A DNA stretch of 64,000 nt from an uncultured Bacteroidales bacterium (GTDB taxonomy: Bacteria > Bacteroidota > Bacteroidia > Bacteroidales > Bacteroidaceae), in contig CADAGX010000002.1 of the NCBI GenBank assembly GCA_902787575.1, positions 62,001 through 126,000 of the forward strand, read 5' to 3'. Below the pieces are notes generated by a model. It saw nothing but the letters and a program-made list of their open reading frames with translations, had not been told where the DNA came from and searched no databases. Both the position numbers and the translations under genes were made by a program. Positions 4,073 to 63,500 of the stretch are shown piece by piece (the first letter of the stretch is position 1; the number at the start of each line of letters is the position of its first letter).

Positions 4073-4092
4073 TACGGAAAAAGGAATTCCTG

Positions 4093-4170
4093 CCTCACGT
4101 AGCAAAGCTCATTGCAACGTGTAGTTTTCTCTTTTTTCACACGTGGCAATTACAAATTATACGTGTTATT
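4093..4170. repeat. Phased palindrome array A (degenerate copy)
   Basis: Four cores (ACGTAG 4097, ACGTGT 4117, ACACGT 4139, ACGTGT 4161) are spaced 20, 22 and 22 bp apart. Flanks such as TTGCA...AGTT and TTC...GGCAA are shared with the better-preserved arrays at 39.3, 53.0 and 63.2 kb. This is a degenerate member of the same family. It lies directly beside the iteron block at 4180. Confidence 0.55.
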
Positions 4171-26757: not shown

Positions 26758-28872
26758 CTATTCGCGGAGGCGGACGTAGAACTCACTGCCGCTGTTGCTG
26801 CGACGGTGGCAGAGATTGGGCAGGCAGTGGAGGATACGACCGAAGGCATTGGCAGCAGGCACCTTGAAGACGGAGCCGGCACGCTGCTTGAGGATGACCA
26901 GAATGGCGGTGGCGGACATCCACTGACCGTCGGCATCGGGCTGGGGAGTCTGGAAGTACTGATGGAAGAACATCTCGGCACTGGTCTGCTGCAGGAAGCG
27001 GCGGTTGTGCTGCATGATGGCGACGGTCTCGGCATCGTCGAACCAATAGCGTGTGCCTGCGTTCAGCTCGGCCTGGGCCTGTGCGAAGAGTTGCGCGTGG
27101 TTGGGTGTCTGGCTGACGTCGATGTTGCCCGTGACTTGTACGCCGAGGAAGCGGCGCGAGCCAGTGGGGTCGGTGAGGACGTCGGCCATGTTGGTGGTGG
27201 CGATGAACGAGGCCAGACGTGGTGTCTCTTCGGCATGCCGGGCATACGGACGTTTCACCTTGACGGACGGTAGCTGCAGGATGTTCTTGAGGAAGCCTTG
27301 CTGCTTGGCGGGCGAGATGCGGTTGAACTCGTCGAGGTTGATGAGCAAGGTCTGTGCCATGGCCAAGTGGACCTGACGCTCGTCGCTGAGCGAGAGGTTG
27401 TCGGTGTAGCCCCACGAACGCAGTTCGGGCGGAAGCAGTGAGCGGCAGAAAGCGCTCTTGTGCATTCCCTGCTCGGAGACGAGCAGCGGCACGAGGGCGT
27501 TGCCGTAGCGGAGGTCGCGCCCCTGCCATTGTGCCACCATGGCCAGAAACCAGGTGTGGAACCAGTCGGCCCAGAGCTGAGGATGGTCGGTGGGCACGGT
27601 GGCGGCCAGAGAGCGGATGTGGTCGCGGCCGTCCCATTGCGAGGCGAGACCATAGAGATAATGCTCCACGGGGTTATACTCGTGGATGCGAGTGGAATTG
27701 ACGTAACGGCGCACATCGCGGTCCCACACGTCGAGGCCTGCCAGCTGGAGGTCGGTGGAGAAGGTGTTGACTACCTGTTCGGTGACGGGCCGCCAAGGGG
27801 TAACCCAGCTGTGGTTGGTGCGGTATTCGGTGTAGCCCATGATGGTGTTGCGGCGAAAGACGTAGCGGCTCTCCATGCGACGGATGAGTTGCTGCATCAG
27901 GGGTTCATCGGCGAGAGCCGACGGTTTCTTGTGTAGAACGCGCTGTTCGTCGTAGACGGTCATGACGAGCATCCGCACAAACTCCTCCGTCAGTCCGGGC
28001 CAGTCCTTATAGGTAAGATGGCGCCACAGGTGGCAGACGGCCTCCTCCTCGGGCCAGCCCATGCCGCAGAGTGCTGTGGCCATGGCTGTGACGAAGTGTT
28101 TGTACCACTCGTTGCTGTTCTGCGAGACGGCGGGCAGCTGCTTGTTCACCTGAGCGAGTGCTTGGTCGTAGGCCCGCTCGTAGTTGGCATACGCTGTCAT
28201 GTCGGCTTCCTCGAAATGGCGCTCTTCGGGTAGCGCCAGCAGGTGGTCGTCGGCCTCGTCGTATGTGGGTGTGGCGGTGTCGGACGGGCTGATGCGGAAT
28301 GGGGCTGCCGCAGGGTTGATGAGTGGGCAGGAATCCAGTGGCATCAGGAAGGCATGCCGCAGCGTGGGCTTCATGCGGGTGATGCGTTTGGGCAGCAGCG
28401 AGTCATAGACTGCGGCCAGACGATGATAGGCCAGCGAGTAGAAGTCCTCGACCTCGGTCTCCAGCACTGGCAGCGTGCCGTCGGAGCGAGATACGCTGAC
28501 GAGGAGGATGACCTCTGTGCCGGTGGCACCCACGAAGGCGGCCAGCGTGGATGGCATCGTTAGGGCGGCACGTTTGACATCGTCGCAGTCCTGCTGACCC
28601 ATGAGCTGACGTACCTCGAGCACCACCAGCCCGTTGAAGTGGGCGATGCCTGTGGCTCCGTTCGTCTGGCGACAGAGTTCTGCGGCTGCCACCACGTGCG
28701 GAACTTCGTCGTAGCAGCGGAATTGGCGGACGCGGTCGGGCGTCGTCTCGTGGCGTAACTTCTGGATGAGACGGTTGGGGGTGTCGGTCTGGATGCGTTC
28801 GAAGAACTTGGTGGCATCCCACTGGCGAAGGTGCTCGCCGCGACGGTCGGTCTTGATTGTGGAAAATTTCAT
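26758..28872 (-). CDS. BT4734/VirE-type primase-helicase-like protein
   Basis: A 704-residue protein with two parts. The N-terminal ~200 residues match the BT4734-like domain common in Bacteroidota (RQFRCYDEVPHVVAAAEL, GIAHFNGLVVLEVRQLMG, FVGATGTEVILLVSVSRSDG). The C-terminal half is a VirE/VapE P-loop ATPase: WDGRDHIRSLA, Walker A SEQGMHKSAFCR (GMHKS at 469-473), Walker B LLINLDEF (about 509-516), and sensor-like SFIATTN with TGSRRFLGV. VapE proteins act as replication helicases in phage satellites; this role is inferred. The ATG at 28872 is chosen; its leader contains phased array B. The gene is flanked by inverted iteron blocks. No integrase is present. Confidence 0.85.
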   Translation of the reverse strand: MKFSTIKTDRRGEHLRQWDATKFFERIQTDTPNRLIQKLRHETTPDRVRQFRCYDEVPHVVAAAELCRQTNGATGIAHFNGLVVLEVRQLMGQQDCDDVKRAALTMPSTLAAFVGATGTEVILLVSVSRSDGTLPVLETEVEDFYSLAYHRLAAVYDSLLPKRITRMKPTLRHAFLMPLDSCPLINPAAAPFRISPSDTATPTYDEADDHLLALPEERHFEEADMTAYANYERAYDQALAQVNKQLPAVSQNSNEWYKHFVTAMATALCGMGWPEEEAVCHLWRHLTYKDWPGLTEEFVRMLVMTVYDEQRVLHKKPSALADEPLMQQLIRRMESRYVFRRNTIMGYTEYRTNHSWVTPWRPVTEQVVNTFSTDLQLAGLDVWDRDVRRYVNSTRIHEYNPVEHYLYGLASQWDGRDHIRSLAATVPTDHPQLWADWFHTWFLAMVAQWQGRDLRYGNALVPLLVSEQGMHKSAFCRSLLPPELRSWGYTDNLSLSDERQVHLAMAQTLLINLDEFNRISPAKQQGFLKNILQLPSVKVKRPYARHAEETPRLASFIATTNMADVLTDPTGSRRFLGVQVTGNIDVSQTPNHAQLFAQAQAELNAGTRYWFDDAETVAIMQHNRRFLQQTSAEMFFHQYFQTPQPDADGQWMSATAILVILKQRAGSVFKVPAANAFGRILHCLPNLCHRRSNSGSEFYVRLRE

Positions 28873-28941
28873 AGGCTTTGTTTTTAGTTTTTGGGTTTTG
28901 AAATGTTTATGATTCTTCCTCGGCCCACAGCGCTCTCGCGC

Positions 28942-29035
28942 TTGACGTGAGAATTTGTATCCCACGTGTGGGAAAACGAATGCGACACGCCGCACCGTTT
29001 TTGTCACGCGTGGGAGTTTCTGACGCTACGCACAA
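28942..29035. repeat. Phased palindrome array B, in the leader of the VirE gene
   Basis: Cores ACGTGA (28945), ACGTGT in TCCCACGTGTGGGA (28964), ACACGC in TGCGACACGCCGCA (28985), ACGCGT in GTCACGCGTGGGA (29006) and a weak ACGCTACGC (29023) are spaced 19, 21, 21 and 17 bp. It is a less regular member of the family seen at 39.3, 53.0 and 63.2 kb. It lies between the predicted VirE promoter and the VirE start codon. Confidence 0.55.
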
Positions 29036-35052: not shown

Positions 35053-38000
35053 ATGAAGAAAACATTTACTCTTGCTCTGACGTTGCTTCTTTGCACGTTC
35101 GGAGTCATTCGGGCGCAAGTTCCCTTCACCCTCGAGGACGGGTATTACTTGCTTTCCTCGGCAGAGGATCTTCAGACGTTGTCGGCCCTCTCAAACGATG
35201 TGGGTCAGCGCGACAACGTGCGTACAGCTAATTACAAGCTGACGAAGGACATCGACATGAGCGCGGTGGAGAACTTCACTCCCATCAGCTTTACCAGTTC
35301 TAACGGTGCCGCTTTCGGTGGTATCTTCGACGGTCAGGGTCACACGATCTCGAACGTGACGATTTCTACGCCCGAGAGCCATGGTAATCATCTGGGCTTC
35401 ATCGGACTGCTTTTCAGTGGAACCCTTCGCAATTTGTGCATCAAGAACATCACCATCAACAGCAACAGTACTACGGCAGTGGCTCGTGGTGCCTTGGTTG
35501 GTCGCGACGGATCGAGTACCATCGAGAACTGCTGTGTGATCAACTTCACGCTGAACGATGCATGCCTCACTTCGAGCAGTACTACGACGGCTGGTGCCGT
35601 GGTGGGTTACCTCTCGTCGAGCGAGACAACCTTCTTCCGGAACTGCTATGCCTACAATGCCATTCGCGTGACGGGCGAGGACAGTGCTCCCATTCGTTCG
35701 TATGGCGGCAAGGGTGCCAAGGCTACCGTGACTAACAACTACGACAACACGACTACCGAAGAAGCTGACTTTGCCAGCGGTAAGGTGTGCTATCTGCTCA
35801 ACGGTTCGCAGAGCGAAACTCCCGTCTGGTTCCAGACGCTCGAAGAGGACGCTTCGCCCTTGCTGGACAGCACGCACAAGACGGTGTATGTGGCCAATGA
35901 CTTGACTTGCGACGGCAAGCCCAAGGGCGACGAACTCATTTACGGCAACAGTGGTCCCGGCCAACGCGACGACCATGATTTCGTCAATGGCGTCTGCAAT
36001 ATCTGCGGCAATGCCGACGAGACATGGCTTACTCCGGTGGACGGCGTCTATCAGCTTGGTACGCCCGAGCAGGTACAGTGGTTTGCAGCCTATGTGAACG
36101 GCAACCACGGTACTGCTAATGCTTGCCTGACGGCAGACATTAACTTTGCCAGCGTGGAGAACTTCAAGCCTATTGGTACGAAGGCATCTCCCTATCATGC
36201 TACCTTCGACGGCCAAGGTCACAAAATCTCGAACCTTTATATCAATGTTGAGGGCGAGAACGTAGGTATCTTCGGTACTGTCATCGGAGGTGCTACGATA
36301 AAGAACTTTGTGCTGGACAACACGTGCTCCATCTATGGTGTCTCGTATGTGGGCATCGTTGGTGCATCCAATGGTGAAGGCAACGTCATCCTGCAGTGCA
36401 TTGGCCAGGAGGGAGTAGTCGTTGCATCGGACCGCAACGCCGGAGCTATCATCGGTTGCAACTATGGCGGAACGGCTAAGTTCACCATCGAGAACTGCTA
36501 CAACACCGGCACCATTCAGGGTGCACGCGAGAGCGCTGCTCTGAGTGGCTACGTTGGCAGCGGCGCTATCATCCGTAACTGCTACAACATTGGCGTGGTG
36601 ACAGGCTACGACGTTGAAAGTACATATGTTTATCCTTATATCTACCGAGGCTCGGCTACAATGACCAACACGTATAGTGCCACCGGCGTAGAGGATGAGA
36701 ACATTGCAATAGACGAAGAAATAGGTACGGGCGAGCTGACATGGCTGCTGAATGGCAAGTCGTTTGTCAACCCCGTTTGGTTCCAGACCATTGGCACCGA
36801 TGCATATCCCGTGCTCAATCCCGCTTCTGCCATCGTTTATAAGAACGGTGAGAACTATGCCAACGTAGGAAACGACGATTCGTTCCCCGCCTTCCGCGAG
36901 TTCCTGATAACACAGGAAACAGAGGCGAACGAGGAGAAAGTTGCCACACAGTCGTTGCTCGACGATTATAAGGCCGCAGTGGCTGGCTGGAGCGACATCG
37001 TAACGCTCGACTCTCTGATGGCTGCCTATGCCGAGACAAAGGCTATGCGCGACGACATTGCTAAGTCCGTGCGCGAGTATCAGGCCTACGCACAAGCTTG
37101 TCAGGAGGCACGCGATCAGCTCAGCACCATCGAGCAGCAGAACAGCTATCGCGATGTAGCCGAGGACTACCTCGATGAAAGCAACGAAATAGAGCCCGGC
37201 GACTTCCCCAACGGTAACAGCGCCTACGTCATGGCCCATCACACCCTGACGGGCGAGGAACTTACCGCCGAGACGGAGTACATGTCGAAGTTGCTCCTGC
37301 GCGTGTTGTTGTCCAACCCCGAAGCCGGTACCGACATGACATTTGTCATGGATAATCCCGACTTTACTGGCGGCTTCAATGGCTGGACCGTGGAAGGCAA
37401 TGCAGAAATGTACAAGGGTGGCGAAGCCTCTGTGATGACCTGTGCACGCGGTATGAATGGCGTGTTCAGCATGACGCAGACCCTCGAGGATCTGCCCAAC
37501 GGCATCTACGAGTTGGTGATGAACGGCTTCACACGTACGGCCTCCGACCCAAGTGTTCGCCTCTACACGGCTGACTTACTGATGAACGACGTGGCCAACA
37601 ACATTATGGCCATCGGCGAAGATCCCGTTTACGAGGAGGATGCAGTGGACAGCGTGAACTGCCACATCACTGGTTCGAGTGTCGATGCAGTGTTCTACGA
37701 CGAAATCAACGGCGGAACGGGCTGGGTGCCTGGTTACCTGGTGGGCTGCTCGTATGCATTCCGTGCTAACCGTTATCTGAACCGTGTGGCTGTGGAGGTT
37801 ACCGACGGCAAACTCACACTCGGTGTGCGCGACCATGCTTCTACTTTGGGCAACTGGACGACCTTCGCCAACGCACGTCTCTACTTCCTCGGAACAGCAG
37901 AAGAGGCTAACGACTCGCTGACGGCTGTGCTGGGCAGCTTCGTGGCACGCGCCACCACAATTCGCGACTTCGTGGCCGACTCCGGTACCGATTATCCGAA

Positions 38001-39270
38001 GCGTCCGAACATCTCGTCCGACCTGATTGACCAGATATCTACGGCCATCACCGAGAGCGAGACAGCATCCACGGGAGAGCAGAAGATGGCTCTCATCAAA
38101 CGCTTCAGCGACCTCTTTGCTAAGGTTTACGCATGCCGCATGGCATACGTCGACTTGCTGAAGTCCGTAGAAACTCTCGAGGACCTTGCAACGAAACTTT
38201 ATACGAACGGCTTGCTGAGCGAAGACGATTATATGGCAGCTTTCAGTGCTACGAGCAAGGCATGGGACGGCTTCGAAAAAGGAACTATGAGCGAGCAGGA
38301 AGCACGCGACCTTATCAAGGAACTCGAGGACTACTATGGCAGCATCTCTCTGCCGAAGGACGACGATGGTTTCTATCATCTGAGCACGGCTCACCACATG
38401 GCTATGTTCTCTACGATCGTCAACGAAGGCGAGAATAATGCCAAGGCTGTGTTGGACGCTGACATCGACATGAGCGTGATAGATAACTTCACGCCCATCG
38501 GTTTCACCAGTGCCAACGGAAAGGCTTTCATCGGTTTCTTCGACGGTCAGGGTCATACCGTATCGAACGTAACCATCAATATTGACGGCGAGAACACCAA
38601 CCACGTAGGCTTCATCGGCCTGCTGTACACGCCCGGTGCAGTAACCAACTTGTGTGTCAAGGACATCACCATCAACAATGAGAGCACGGCTCAGGTGGCT
38701 CGTGGTGCAATCGTAGGTCGAGACGGTTCGGGCTCCATTACGAACTGCTGTGCGGTTAACTTCACGATAAACGAAAAACCCATCGTGGAGTCGGCAACTA
38801 CCGGCACAGGTGGCATCGTGGGTTACCTTTCGTCTACCGCTTCCTCCATCTTGGAGAACTGCTTTGCATATCATGCCATCCGCAATGTGGAAGGCACTGC
38901 CACTCCTCTGAATACTTTCGGTGGCAAGGGTTCAAAGACAGTGAACGTGCGCAACAACTACGAGAGCCGCACCACCACAGACGAGCAGTTTGCCAGTGGT
39001 GAGATTACCTACAAGCTCAATGGCGAACGCTCTGATAGCGTGCTGTATTATCAGACACTGGGCGAGGACGATTATCCCATGCTCAGCTCCAACAGCAAGA
39101 TTGTCTATAAGACAGCAGAAGGCGTTTACACCAACGAAGGTGACGGCATCGTAGCCGTACGCAAGGAGGAGAACATCGAAGGAGTCCTCTTCGACCTGAC
39201 AGGTCGCCGCGTACAGAAGGCAGAGAAAGGCCTGTACATCATCGAAGGCCGCAAGGTACTCGTGAAGTAA
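35053..39270 (+). CDS. Large GLUG-type surface protein with a type IX secretion sorting tail
   Basis: A 1405-residue exported protein with a signal peptide (MKKTFTLALTLLLCTFGVIR, then AQ). There are three beta-rich segments with GLUG-like repeats at about residues 29-276, 330-600 and 1097-1370. Typical strings are FGGIFDGQGHTISNVTI, ATFDGQGHKISNLYI and IGFFDGQGHTVSNVTI. Segments 1 and 3 are near-duplicates, sharing the FIGLL, ARGA-VGRDGS, GGKG and NNY blocks. Between segments 2 and 3 lies a helical and beta linker. The last ~35 residues (GVLFDLTGRRVQKAEKGLYI, then IEGRKVLVK) match the T9SS type A C-terminal sorting domain. Adhesin-like or matrix function is inference. A terminator follows. 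Confidence 0.85.
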   Translation: MKKTFTLALTLLLCTFGVIRAQVPFTLEDGYYLLSSAEDLQTLSALSNDVGQRDNVRTANYKLTKDIDMSAVENFTPISFTSSNGAAFGGIFDGQGHTISNVTISTPESHGNHLGFIGLLFSGTLRNLCIKNITINSNSTTAVARGALVGRDGSSTIENCCVINFTLNDACLTSSSTTTAGAVVGYLSSSETTFFRNCYAYNAIRVTGEDSAPIRSYGGKGAKATVTNNYDNTTTEEADFASGKVCYLLNGSQSETPVWFQTLEEDASPLLDSTHKTVYVANDLTCDGKPKGDELIYGNSGPGQRDDHDFVNGVCNICGNADETWLTPVDGVYQLGTPEQVQWFAAYVNGNHGTANACLTADINFASVENFKPIGTKASPYHATFDGQGHKISNLYINVEGENVGIFGTVIGGATIKNFVLDNTCSIYGVSYVGIVGASNGEGNVILQCIGQEGVVVASDRNAGAIIGCNYGGTAKFTIENCYNTGTIQGARESAALSGYVGSGAIIRNCYNIGVVTGYDVESTYVYPYIYRGSATMTNTYSATGVEDENIAIDEEIGTGELTWLLNGKSFVNPVWFQTIGTDAYPVLNPASAIVYKNGENYANVGNDDSFPAFREFLITQETEANEEKVATQSLLDDYKAAVAGWSDIVTLDSLMAAYAETKAMRDDIAKSVREYQAYAQACQEARDQLSTIEQQNSYRDVAEDYLDESNEIEPGDFPNGNSAYVMAHHTLTGEELTAETEYMSKLLLRVLLSNPEAGTDMTFVMDNPDFTGGFNGWTVEGNAEMYKGGEASVMTCARGMNGVFSMTQTLEDLPNGIYELVMNGFTRTASDPSVRLYTADLLMNDVANNIMAIGEDPVYEEDAVDSVNCHITGSSVDAVFYDEINGGTGWVPGYLVGCSYAFRANRYLNRVAVEVTDGKLTLGVRDHASTLGNWTTFANARLYFLGTAEEANDSLTAVLGSFVARATTIRDFVADSGTDYPKRPNISSDLIDQISTAITESETASTGEQKMALIKRFSDLFAKVYACRMAYVDLLKSVETLEDLATKLYTNGLLSEDDYMAAFSATSKAWDGFEKGTMSEQEARDLIKELEDYYGSISLPKDDDGFYHLSTAHHMAMFSTIVNEGENNAKAVLDADIDMSVIDNFTPIGFTSANGKAFIGFFDGQGHTVSNVTINIDGENTNHVGFIGLLYTPGAVTNLCVKDITINNESTAQVARGAIVGRDGSGSITNCCAVNFTINEKPIVESATTGTGGIVGYLSSTASSILENCFAYHAIRNVEGTATPLNTFGGKGSKTVNVRNNYESRTTTDEQFASGEITYKLNGERSDSVLYYQTLGEDDYPMLSSNSKIVYKTAEGVYTNEGDGIVAVRKEENIEGVLFDLTGRRVQKAEKGLYIIEGRKVLVK

Positions 39271-39296: not shown

Positions 39297-39333
39297 GGCA
39301 GGGGCGGCAAAACATGCCGTCCCTGCCTTTTTT
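39297..39333 (+). terminator. Intrinsic terminator of the surface protein gene
   Basis: A 13-bp stem (GGCAGGGGCGGCA / TGCCGTCCCTGCC, one G-T pair) with a 5-nt loop and a TTTTTT tail, 26 bp after the stop codon. Confidence 0.85.
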
Positions 39334-39336
39334 CTA

Positions 39337-39442
39337 TGCCACGCGTCGCAAGTGAAAATGCGACGCGTCGCGTGAGCCAATGCGACGTGTCGCGTGAGCC
39401 AATGCGACGTGTCGCGTGAGCGCAAACTACACGTCGCATTTC
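39337..39442. repeat. Phased palindrome array C (five copies, exact 22-bp period)
   Basis: Cores ACGCGT (39341, 39363), ACGTGT (39385, 39407) and ACACGT (39429) recur at exactly 22-bp intervals. The 14-bp context is TGCGACGCGTCGCA or a close variant; the 8-bp spacer varies (AGTGAAAA, TGAGCCAA twice, TGAGCGCA). It lies between the surface protein terminator and the typA promoter. No coding potential was seen. Confidence 0.8.
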
Positions 39443-39594: not shown

Positions 39595-39602
39595 TACCTT
39601 TG
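39595..39602 (+). promoter_or_regulatory. -7 promoter element of typA
   Basis: TACCTTTG lies 23 bp before the typA ATG. No clean TTTG was found at -33. The 39443-39590 stretch before it holds nothing else recognisable. Confidence 0.55.
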
Positions 39603-39625: not shown

Positions 39626-41425
39626 ATGCAGGACATAAGAAATATTGCCATCATTGCCCACGTAGACCACGGCAAGACGACTCTCGTGGACAAGATGCTG
39701 CTGGCTGGAAACCTCTTCCGCGAGAACCAGCAGACGGGCGAACTGATGCTCGACAACAACGAACTGGAGCGCGAGAGGGGCATCACCATTCTCTCGAAGA
39801 ATGTTTCCATCAATTACCGCGGCACGAAAATCAACATCATCGACACTCCGGGTCACTCCGACTTCGGTGGCGAGGTGGAGCGCGTGCTGAATATGGCCGA
39901 CGGCTGCCTGCTGTTGGTGGATGCCTTCGAGGGCCCGATGCCGCAGACACGCTTCGTGCTGCAGAAAGCATTGCAGATAGGGCTGAAGCCTATCGTGGTG
40001 GTGAACAAGGTGGATAAGCCAAACTGCCGGCCGGAGGAAGTGTACGAGATGGTATTCGACCTAATGTGCGACCTCGATGCCACAGAGGAACAGCTCGACT
40101 TCCCCGTCATCTACGGCTCGGCCAAGAACGGCTGGATGGGCGCAGACTGGAACACGCCCACCGAGGATATCACCTACCTGCTGGATGCCATCATCGAGCA
40201 CATACCTGCACCGGAATATCTGGAAGGCACGCCGCAGATGCTCATCACGTCGCTCGACTACAGCAACTACACCGGTCGCATAGCCGTGGGCCGTGTGCAT
40301 CGCGGAACCATCCGCGAAGGAATGCCCATCACCGTGGCGCATCGCGACGGCTCGATGGAGAAAACGAAAATAAAGGAGTTGCATACCTTCACCGGCATGG
40401 GACACCAGAAGACGCAGCAAGTCTCGAGCGGCGACATCTGTGCCATCATCGGCTTGGAGCACTTCGAGATTGGAGACACCATCTGCGACGCCGAATCGCC
40501 CGAACCACTGCCCACCATCAGCATCGATGAGCCCACGATGTCTATGCTCTTCACCATCAACGACTCGCCGTTCTTTGGTAAGGAAGGCAAGTACTGCACG
40601 AGCCGCCACATCTACGAGCGTCTGCAGCGCGAGTTGGAAAAGAACCTGGCACTGCGCGTGGAAGAGGTGGAAGGCAACACCGACCGCTGGATTGTAAGCG
40701 GCCGTGGCGTGCTTCACCTGTCTGTTCTCATCGAGACGATGCGGCGCGAAGGCTACGAGCTGCAGGTGGGTCAGCCGCAGGTTATCTATAAGGAAATCGA
40801 CGGCCAGCGCTGCGAGCCAATAGAGGAACTCACCATCAATGTGCCCGAGGAATTCAGTTCGAAGATGATAGATATGGTGACGCGCCGCAAGGGAGAGATG
40901 CTGAGCATGGAGACGCAGGGCGACCGCGTGAACATACAATTCCAGATTCCCAGCCGTGGCATCATCGGTTTGCGTACCAATGTGCTTACGGCCTCGCAGG
41001 GCGAAGCCATCATGGCGCACCGCTATTTGGAATATCAGCCCTTCAAGGGCGAGATAAACCGTCGTATCAACGGCTCTATGATTAGCCTCGAGACGGGCAC
41101 AGCGTTTGCCTACGCCATCAACAACCTGCAAGACCGCGGCCGCTTCTTCATCGAACCGCAAGACCAAGTGTATGCCGGTCAGGTGGTGGGTGAGCATGTG
41201 CACGAGAACGACCTTGTGGTGAACGTCTGCAAGGCCAAACAGCTGACTAACATGCGTGCCAGCGGCTCGGACGAGAAAGTGCGTATCATTCCGGCCACCA
41301 TCTTCTCGCTGGAGGAGGCGCTCGAATACATAAAAGAAGACGAGTACGTAGAAGTGACGCCCAAGAGTATGCGTATGCGCAAGTGCATCCTCGACCACCT
41401 GGAGCGCAAACGTGCCGACCGCTAA
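39626..41425 (+). CDS. typA: GTP-binding protein TypA/BipA
   Basis: Ribosome-associated translational GTPase implicated in stress adaptation and ribosome assembly. The 599-residue protein has G1 AHVDHGKTTLVDKML, the switch region RERGITILSKN, G3 DTPGHSDFGGEVERVL, G4 NKVDKP and G5 YGSAKNGW. These are followed by the beta-barrel domain II, EF-G III/V-like domains and the TypA-specific C-terminal domain. It is separated from the convergent nhaA by a terminator. Confidence 0.97.
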   Translation: MQDIRNIAIIAHVDHGKTTLVDKMLLAGNLFRENQQTGELMLDNNELERERGITILSKNVSINYRGTKINIIDTPGHSDFGGEVERVLNMADGCLLLVDAFEGPMPQTRFVLQKALQIGLKPIVVVNKVDKPNCRPEEVYEMVFDLMCDLDATEEQLDFPVIYGSAKNGWMGADWNTPTEDITYLLDAIIEHIPAPEYLEGTPQMLITSLDYSNYTGRIAVGRVHRGTIREGMPITVAHRDGSMEKTKIKELHTFTGMGHQKTQQVSSGDICAIIGLEHFEIGDTICDAESPEPLPTISIDEPTMSMLFTINDSPFFGKEGKYCTSRHIYERLQRELEKNLALRVEEVEGNTDRWIVSGRGVLHLSVLIETMRREGYELQVGQPQVIYKEIDGQRCEPIEELTINVPEEFSSKMIDMVTRRKGEMLSMETQGDRVNIQFQIPSRGIIGLRTNVLTASQGEAIMAHRYLEYQPFKGEINRRINGSMISLETGTAFAYAINNLQDRGRFFIEPQDQVYAGQVVGEHVHENDLVVNVCKAKQLTNMRASGSDEKVRIIPATIFSLEEALEYIKEDEYVEVTPKSMRMRKCILDHLERKRADR

Positions 41426-53005: not shown

Positions 53006-53107
53006 TACGACGTGTCGCAACGTCTTTTGCGACACGTGGCATCGGCTCATGCGACGTGTGGCATTGCTCGTTGCGACGCGTCGTATTTTTCTTGCCACGT
53101 GTGGCAT
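53006..53107. repeat. Phased palindrome array D (five copies)
   Basis: Cores ACGTGT (53010), ACACGT (53032), ACGTGT (53054), ACGCGT (53076) and ACGTGT (53097) are spaced 22, 22, 22 and 21 bp. Contexts include TGCGACACGTGGCA, TGCGACGTGTGGCA and TGCCACGTGTGGCA. The array lies between the yidD stop and the CoA-transferase promoter. Confidence 0.8.
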
Positions 53108-57184: not shown

Positions 57185-57235
57185 TCTTTTTCTACTTCAT
57201 TAAGTTAATAAGACAGCGGGAAGGGGTACGGAAAA

Positions 57236-57290
57236 ATCTTTTTAGCATTTTTTTTGGTGGTTGCAAGCATCCAAATCCCTCCACACTTAG
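57236..57290 (-). ncRNA. SAM-II-like riboswitch in the metK leader
   Basis: On the minus strand the segment reads GTGG (P1 5' side), AGGGATTTGGATGC, TTGCAA, CCAC (P1 3' side), then A-rich sequence and TGCTAAAAAG. The order GATTT ... TTGCAA - P1 closing - AAA ... GCTAAAAAG matches the conserved core of SAM-II riboswitches, and the gene downstream makes SAM. It begins a few nucleotides after the predicted transcription start. I could not place the second pseudoknot helix with confidence. Confidence 0.55.
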
Positions 57291-63175: not shown

Positions 63176-63276
63176 AACCACACGTCGTTTTGTTTTTGCC
63201 ACGTGTAGTTTTGCTTCACGCGACGCGTCGCATTCGTCTCTGCGACGTGTAGTTTTGTGCGATGCGACGCGTGGCA
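63176..63276. repeat. Phased palindrome array E (five copies)
   Basis: Cores ACACGT (63180), ACGTGT (63201), ACGCGT (63223), ACGTGT (63245) and ACGCGT (63267) are spaced 21, 22, 22 and 22 bp. Contexts include GCGACGCGTCGCA and TGCGACGCGTGGCA, and the variant half-site AGTTTTG occurs twice. It lies upstream of the miaB promoter. The rest of 63030-63600 holds a T-rich stretch, a hairpin and no credible gene. Confidence 0.8.
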
Positions 63277-63500
63277 TAGCCTGCTTGCCGCTGTCTCAGA
63301 AAAAGTATGACATGTAGGTCAAAAAGAAGATGCGAATCGGGAACCGTAATTCGACCTTTGCTACGCAAAAATCTTAAATATAGTTAAAATTTCGCTAAAG
63401 TGAAAAATAAGGCAGTCGGAGGCTTGCTTTTTTCTAAGAAACTTCCGATTTTTGCCCTGTCGAATGTGATATTCGATTTTACTTTTAGTTTGTTTTGGTA

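Follow-up and report, generated by a model that had tools for sequence, protein, structure and literature searches.

Why should a bacterium carry, in the gap upstream of its typA gene, five copies of a short palindrome placed at exactly 22-bp intervals? The sequence in question is a 64,000-nucleotide stretch from an uncultured Bacteroidales bacterium (contig CADAGX010000002.1, positions 62,001 to 126,000; hereafter the window), in which an earlier sequence-only reading had singled out this array. The five dyads, to which no strand is assigned, lie at 39337-39350, 39359-39372, 39381-39394, 39403-39416 and 39425-39438 (whole span 39337..39438), and their cores start at 39341, 39363, 39385, 39407 and 39429; as that reading had claimed, the 22-bp period is exact, with 8-bp spacers. 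Beyond this, our main point is that relatives of the bacterium keep the 22-bp period and change the sequence of the palindrome. From these sequence patterns we propose, with moderate confidence, that the arrays are phased binding-site lattices for cooperative dimeric DNA-binding proteins, which would serve as nodes that organize or insulate the chromosome. As for the target array itself, one unit was probably copied locally, because the spacer TGAGCCAA is identical in two of its four spacers, and the fifth unit has a TGCG-type arm on one side only (AACTACACGTCGCA).

The same period recurs throughout the window and the genome to which it belongs (G000; the window is G000:C2:62001-126000), a 2.65-Mb draft in 34 contigs that is 86.9% complete. 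The window contains 50 occurrences of the 14-mer at up to three mismatches, against a mean of 17 and a maximum of 36 in 100 dinucleotide shuffles, and all pairs among its 63 ACGYGT/ACACGT cores that lie 3-41 bp apart are separated by 22 bp (12 pairs) or 21 bp (two pairs). Over the whole draft, a two-unit period-22 pattern with up to three mismatches gave 255 forward and 269 reverse matches, a palindromic pair possibly counting on both strands, versus three and three for a reversed-pattern control. A motif-based detector applied to four contigs (786 kb) found 63 arrays of 2-7 units, compared with none in the reversed sequence and one in base-permuted sequence; the scan for phased cores suggested as a check of the sequence-only reading thus reveals non-random spacing, and scaling up from this sample gives about 200 arrays in G000. 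Independently of any motif, a sequence-blind scan (at least 28 of 44 matches at a lag, low complexity removed, lags 16 to 29 compared) recovered 30 arrays at lag 22 from the same contigs, the next being lag 21 with 10. Three of the lag-22 arrays fall outside the motif family, all within one odd cluster at C22:93.7-94.1 kb. This cluster (L248:13744-14160, that is G000:C22:93744-94160) is made of several 11-bp direct repeats, for example CATTGAACGCT, CAATTTACGGC and CATATGACAGC, in a long intergenic stretch 3′ of a TAnnTTTG-like element and beside an ordinary 22-bp array; the repeats have the same helical phase as the 22-bp arrays, and dyads are mostly absent from them.

The sequence-blind scan was extended to relatives, most of them drafts with one genome per species. 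It found 17 lag-22 arrays in 332 kb from 20 congeners (largest count at any other lag, 5), 35 in 346 kb from five further congeners (2), 48 in 1.52 Mb flanking typA in 80 public genomes (23, at lag 21), four in 292 kb from other families of the order (3), one in 311 kb from other Bacteroidota (2) and none in 100 kb of E. coli, a single genome used as the control from another phylum (1); stretches under 10 kb made up 6 of 20 in the order set and 5 of 20 in the phylum set. On these counts, the genus gives a strong lag-22 signal and the Bacteroidaceae set a clear one; at the level of the order it becomes thin, and beyond that it is indistinct. Of 65 lag-22 arrays, 39 are palindromic (at no more than 2 of 200 column shuffles), as are three of the four from other families of the order. 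Called open reading frames (ORFs) contain 2 of the 35 arrays of the five further congeners and 1 of 93 lag-22 arrays of other genomes, 30 of the 170 loci used having been found by pattern search. Lag-22 arrays near typA are present as well in the isolates Alloprevotella tannerae ATCC 51259, Bacteroides caecigallinarum and Phocaeicola faecalis, so the arrays cannot be put down to metagenome drafts alone. Second in frequency, both around the 80 typA loci and in G000, is lag 21; 10 of 28 lag-21 arrays are palindromic, and they are in part heptamer repeats and in part 21-bp variants of 22-bp arrays. The heptamer-like repeats (among them AATTGACA/AATTGATA, GGTTAGG/GGTTAGA, AACTCTA/AACTCCC), which produce lags such as 14, 21, 28 and 35, form a separate repeat class within the same genus and family and sit at L101:2341-2416, at L111:16387-16592 and upstream of typA in L114 and L115.

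The palindrome differs from one congener to another. The window's own motif has at least one match in 79 of 139 congeneric genomes, many at control level and a few tens well above it. The pattern TACATGTA-NN-TNCAATTGNA-NN-TACATGTA (up to two mismatches) occurs in 19 of the 139, with up to 185 matches, and in none of the other 120, and GTCRYGAC with CAATTG between (up to one mismatch) occurs in 16. By eye, the arrays of one genome have a common consensus in L152, L173 and L190. In 84 kb of genome G113, TGCGAC..GTCGCA alternates with RCGTGG, and 12 lag-22 arrays were counted, against none at a lag of 18-21 or 23-26; G112 has 12 lag-22 arrays in 69 kb, belonging by eye to at least five families; G027 has six in 33 kb, of several families; G099 has five in 100 kb, mostly non-palindromic; and no lag-22 array was found in the 60 kb of G110 scanned. 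Different dyads nevertheless share one phase, because the outer flank of 22 TACATGTA elements carries a second, weaker palindrome, which scores best when centred 22.0 bp away from the final core (0.373, compared with 0.327 for the next best position and a mean of 0.253). The 19 elements with three exact cores again place it at 22.0 bp (0.376, next 0.331), the other three having two exact cores.

Among the neighbourhoods of TACATGTA elements, the gap beside mutS is recurrent, and an HU-like gene (by eye, unconfirmed) appears twice. Four TACATGTA loci occupy this same gap, which separates mutS from a C_GCAxxG_C_C family gene. A search of the genus for the latter protein matched 95 of 139 genomes, from which the 30 best-placed loci, leaning towards TACATGTA carriers, were compared. 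Seventeen of the 30 have a lag-22 array, 13 of these at -38 or -39 as measured from a called start that falls inside the array, the likely true start lying directly 3′ of it; at six loci, each of which also has a lag-22 array, a different lag passes the threshold (16 in five, 28 in one). At several of these loci the core has been exchanged in all three units (TACATGTA, GTCGCGAC or GTCATGAC) with the register unchanged. The cores are TACATGTA with TGCAATTGCA in G054, G016, G085, G081, G102 and G027, with TTCAATTG in G112 and with TATAATTATA-like dyads in G091; GTCGCGAC with TGCAATTG in G087 and G058, one G087 unit being ATCGCGAC; GTCATGAC/ATCATGAC with CAATTG in G050 and G024; mixed in G136; and unrelated, mostly at other distances, in G052, G093, G039 and G090. 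In the first core groups the units change together, with the register and with outer arms of GCAA..CAA type mostly retained. In five congeners chosen for exact cores, which are also the five best-ranked, none of 44 core columns varies; in the linkers 6 of 8 columns do, and in the adjacent gene 86 of 160 third codon positions. Genomes G087, G058, G050 and G024 have TACATGTA matches elsewhere too (16, 10, 5 and 6); several families thus coexist in them, and the site may pass from one family to another. Two further loci in this gap deserve mention. G081 has two copies of the mutS-side gene (L330 and G081:C68:1014-1065), one beside TACATGTA and one beside GTCGCGAC cores; the explanation is either a duplicated gene or an assembly that mixes two alleles. 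In G032 (L341), the outer arms are retained around what is apparently a single unit, with the look, by eye, of a contracted array.

What is kept within one genome can be seen from the units of G000. Read outward from the dyad, the half-site is Y-G-T-V-G-Y-D-T (232 half-blocks), with C in 121, G in 68 and A in 40 at position 4. The dyad cores are ACACGT (47), ACGTGT (42), ACGCGT (23) and ACATGT (2), with an excess of mixed C-half and T-half dyads over the roughly 55 mixed, 40 C-C and 19 T-T that simple arithmetic predicts for independent halves. The outer arms are biased towards CGCA followed by TTTT. The arms of one dyad are statistically independent of each other (2.14 of 4 matches, shuffled 2.18 ± 0.08; 112 units), and 27 G000 arrays fold as RNA at -37.2, more weakly than when their half-blocks are permuted across arrays (-42.2 ± 1.0) or within them (-43.4 ± 1.1). 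In the TACATGTA family, 2 of 37 linker pairs are complementary (shuffled, 5.6 ± 2.1), and the G113 arrays, at -35.0, fold more weakly than under within-array permutation (-37.5 ± 1.2). Hairpins are therefore unlikely, and an RNA or cruciform reading is disfavoured by arm independence and the folding controls. As half-sites and phase are kept and self-pairing is not, a protein on double-stranded DNA fits, and a hairpin or cruciform does not. Nor do the arrays look like recent copies of one sequence, a second outcome that the sequence-only reading had named as fatal to it: spacers are 38% identical between G000 arrays and 48% identical within one. The cooperative DNA-binding protein that it had proposed as the user is consistent with the independent half-sites, the strict phase and the lack of any sign of selection for self-pairing; the link to promoters that it had drawn is not specific.

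In the model that we favour, the 22-bp unit would comprise two facing 11-bp half-sites for a dimeric sequence-specific protein, so that bound dimers would stand about two helical turns apart, nearly on one face of the DNA. For G000, the model predicts a single protein that would recognize the half-site YGTVGYDT on about 200 arrays; other species would use other half-sites, and some would mix two dyad types in one lattice. Cooperative binding would turn the arrays into nucleoprotein nodes that organize or insulate the chromosome, and not into operators of one regulon. More tentatively, Bacteroidaceae and their kin may use a geometric code, in which intergenic lattices of 11-bp half-sites in a fixed 22-bp phase, at tens to hundreds of places, would be read by lattice-forming proteins; the sequence that these recognize would turn over between congeners, and the site and register can stay. 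As part of that same tentative idea, such lattices could be a bacterial counterpart to the fast-evolving recognition systems of satellites and centromeres or of hotspots.

Several observations weigh against protein-bound lattices as we envisage them. Some genomes carry several families, for which several proteins or a non-protein cause would be needed, and no DNA-binding family stood out as a reader among the recurrent genes flanking the arrays, where typA and S15 recur because the locus set was fetched around typA. Folding of the G113 arrays equals that under across-array permutation (-35.0 ± 1.7). The mutS gap has no array in 13 of the 30 congeners, the absence of variation in its 44 core columns is partly a matter of choice because exact cores were required, and a local regulatory role is possible there because the array, in a short co-directional gap, lies immediately 5′ of the start codon. 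An array is present in the 1 kb upstream of typA at 8 of 76 loci, versus 0-6 per kb elsewhere. However, 4 of the 15 congener typA loci read (of 30, G000 included; the 15 in reverse orientation were left out) reach 27 of 44 matches at lag 22, a number equalled at lag 21, and a conserved position upstream of typA, which is not generally kept among congeners, was treated as weak. On confinement to intergenic DNA, another suggested check, 49 of the 63 G000 arrays lie in gaps between called genes and 12 fall inside putative ORFs from automatic calls. Finally, array-to-array spacing in G000 is somewhat more even than random choice of gaps would give (pooled coefficient of variation 0.74, null 0.94-0.95, P 0.010-0.015), which may speak for the model, but C2 is the one contig in which this evenness is clear; we rejected a strict genome-wide lattice of arrays, as only mild evenness was left once two contigs were added. 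One candidate reader, a TetR-family gene with two arrays upstream (C15:92496-92659), was dropped since a tRNA-Met gene lies between.

It is unlikely, in our view, that the arrays are non-autonomous dispersed repeats, similar to repetitive extragenic palindromes and bacterial interspersed mosaic elements (REP/BIME) or to miniature inverted-repeat transposable elements (MITEs), spread by a transposase and locally amplified, with phasing as a by-product of unit length. Such an origin would suit their high copy number, intergenic placement and patchy distribution, best seen in the TACATGTA pattern, as well as the outer-arm bias and the spacers duplicated inside some arrays. A few G000 arrays even have long identical sequence in common (C8:89107, C14:70681, C22:46 and C22:54808, two of them at contig ends), and these are probably carried by a duplicated element. 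Against it, G000 arrays have half-sites and not spacers in common and do not keep pairing, unrelated families have the 22-bp unit in common, and one orthologous gap holds arrays of differing sequence, 13 of 17 at equal distance. The transposase profile Y1_Tnp matches in 9 of the 19 genomes with the TACATGTA pattern and in 53 of the 120 without it (drafts, in which single absences are weak), was not found in the array-rich drafts G015, G085, G091, G096, G110 and G118, and has one weak match (37 bits) in G000. Membership of the REP class with its associated tyrosine transposase (RAYT) was rejected on pairing, tag, context and transposase profile. An origin in phages or plasmids found no match among either; no viral contig had the two exact patterns searched, arrays of other sequence not having been sought in plasmid, phage or viral records.

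Next in order of probability, and again unlikely, are multi-copy operators of conventional transcription factors, with one global regulator per genome and several paralogues in some. Palindromic dimer sites about two helical turns apart are reminiscent of multi-operator arrays, many of the arrays have a gene downstream, and the one in the mutS gap abuts a start codon. Their placement speaks otherwise. According to our own hexamer-based automatic gene calls, the 63 G000 arrays comprise 24 in co-directional gaps, 15 in divergent gaps (two in one gap), 10 in convergent gaps, 2 at contig edges and the 12 within ORF calls. With 178 co-directional, 64 divergent and 43 convergent gaps of at least 60 bp, convergent gaps (10 over 43) carry arrays as often as divergent ones (15 over 64), which argues against an ordinary promoter regulon, and the 49 gap arrays lie at a median of 43 bp from stop codons and 173 bp from start codons. 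The sequence-only reading had placed the arrays in promoter-bearing gaps; the association is unspecific. It had also counted five intergenic arrays of 4-5 units in the window. There are indeed five, all intergenic by the gene calls used, although two have three clear units. Besides the target, and again without assigned strand, these are 4091..4148 (three dyads), in the divergent gap between a radical SAM gene and a DUF4294 gene; 28960..29015 (three dyads, 21-bp steps), in the divergent gap between a VapE-like gene and a GH43 gene, partly within the longest possible ORF of the left neighbour; 53006..53106 (five dyads, steps of 22, 22, 22 and 21), between two minus-strand genes, for a CoA transferase and rnpA; and 63176..63319 (five contiguous dyads, steps of 21, 22, 22 and 22, plus a doubtful sixth), beside miaB. 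These neighbours, like typA, are functionally unrelated to one another. The protein encoded at 26758-29007, adjoining the second of these arrays, has VapE-like, BT4734-like N-terminal and DUF3874 domains and is of a mobile-element type.

Improbable, too, are neutral slippage minisatellites whose palindromy and period were set by a bias of replication or repair. Unit numbers that vary from 2 to 7, spacers more alike within arrays (0.48) than between them (0.38) and the apparent single-unit remnant (by eye) at the mutS site of G032 would fit them, but many arrays of one genome have the half-site and not the spacers in common, cores are invariant while linkers vary (at loci chosen for exact cores), and the core has been exchanged in all units at the mutS site. 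A role in RNA, as terminators, mRNA 3′-end stabilizers or processing sites, is very improbable, for although arrays lie near stop codons and the target array follows a terminator, dyad arms do not covary, G000 arrays fold more weakly than their permuted controls, divergent gaps are equally occupied, and no Rfam family matches at gathering score at any window array. The Rfam matches in the window are two tRNAs and a SAM-II riboswitch (57232-57290, minus strand, 60.2 bits).

The target array lies in a gap between two plus-strand genes. Upstream, a gene for a 1405-aa protein (35053..39270), whose sole match is GLUG, just under the cut-off, is followed on the same strand by an intrinsic-terminator-like hairpin (39297..39327; a 13-pair stem, then a T-run), and the array begins 9 bp downstream of this. 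About 155 bp 3′ of the array and 5′ of typA stands TACCTTTG (39595..39602, plus strand), a promoter-like element resembling TAnnTTTG, which we take to be the Bacteroidetes -7 consensus. The typA/bipA gene for a translational GTPase follows at 39626..41425 on the plus strand (TIGR01394, 914 bits). Its product is nearest (91%) to that of an uncultured Bacteroidales genome and then to those of Prevotellaceae/Bacteroidaceae genomes, many of them from ruminants.

Should proteins indeed bind the lattices, abundant bacteria of the gut and rumen would have an extensive, as yet undescribed layer of chromosome biology, and arrays that hold their place and phase while their sequence is replaced would document naturally how protein and DNA co-evolve. 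Isolating the binding protein should be easy, given how short, strong and specific to each genome the arrays are. We found no description of such arrays in the open-access literature, subscription papers being outside that scope; a passage of one paper states that short repeats of 3 to 31 bp are left unannotated (PMC5771137). Among the closest likenesses is REP/BIME, which the passages available of PMC3733652 describe as short palindromic high-copy extragenic repeats, some species-specific and with several types per genome, that fold into hairpins, bear a GTAG or CGTC tag at the unpaired end, are linked to a Y1 tyrosine transposase (GTAG type) and lie mostly between unidirectional and convergent genes. 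The 22-bp arrays are likewise short, palindromic, high in copy, extragenic and species-specific, with several types per genome. Unlike the hairpins of those passages, their arms are independent and fold more weakly than permuted controls in G000, the TACATGTA linkers are non-complementary, and G113 has no across-array preference. No constant GTAG or CGTC is seen in the G000 half-blocks, where either can occur only as a variant of the variable half-site (C, G or A at position 4), or, by eye, in the TACATGTA flanks. Fifteen of 63 arrays are in divergent gaps, at a per-gap rate equal to that of convergent ones, Y1_Tnp does not track the arrays, and their constant feature is the fixed 22-bp phase. 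BrickBuilt, a MITE/minisatellite of Porphyromonas gingivalis, has a 23-nt unit without spacers, up to 22.8 copies, 19 loci and a leader and tail of up to ~300 nt, and palindromic half-sites are not mentioned in the passages available (PMC4596501). It shares with our arrays an intergenic location in Bacteroidales, tandem units of about two helical turns and special end sequences; the period of our arrays is 22 and not 23, and no leader or tail was noticed in the arrays inspected. With their variable 14-bp dyads, 8-bp spacers and 2-7 units, the arrays also differ from clustered regularly interspaced short palindromic repeats (CRISPR), in which longer near-identical repeats alternate with unique spacers of similar length. 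A conventional set of transcription-factor operators would occupy promoter-bearing gaps only, unlike these arrays, 10 of 63 of which are in convergent gaps. In lambda operators, plasmid iterons and the sopC/parC centromeres, several protein sites about two helical turns apart are bound cooperatively at one or a few loci, whereas the 22-bp arrays occupy tens to hundreds of chromosomal loci and differ in sequence between congeneric species. The sites of matS, SlmA and Noc are palindromic, scattered over the chromosome and bound by dimers, as single sites of conserved sequence; scattered palindromes are what our arrays have in common with them, and phased 22-bp repetition with a species-specific sequence is what sets the arrays apart.
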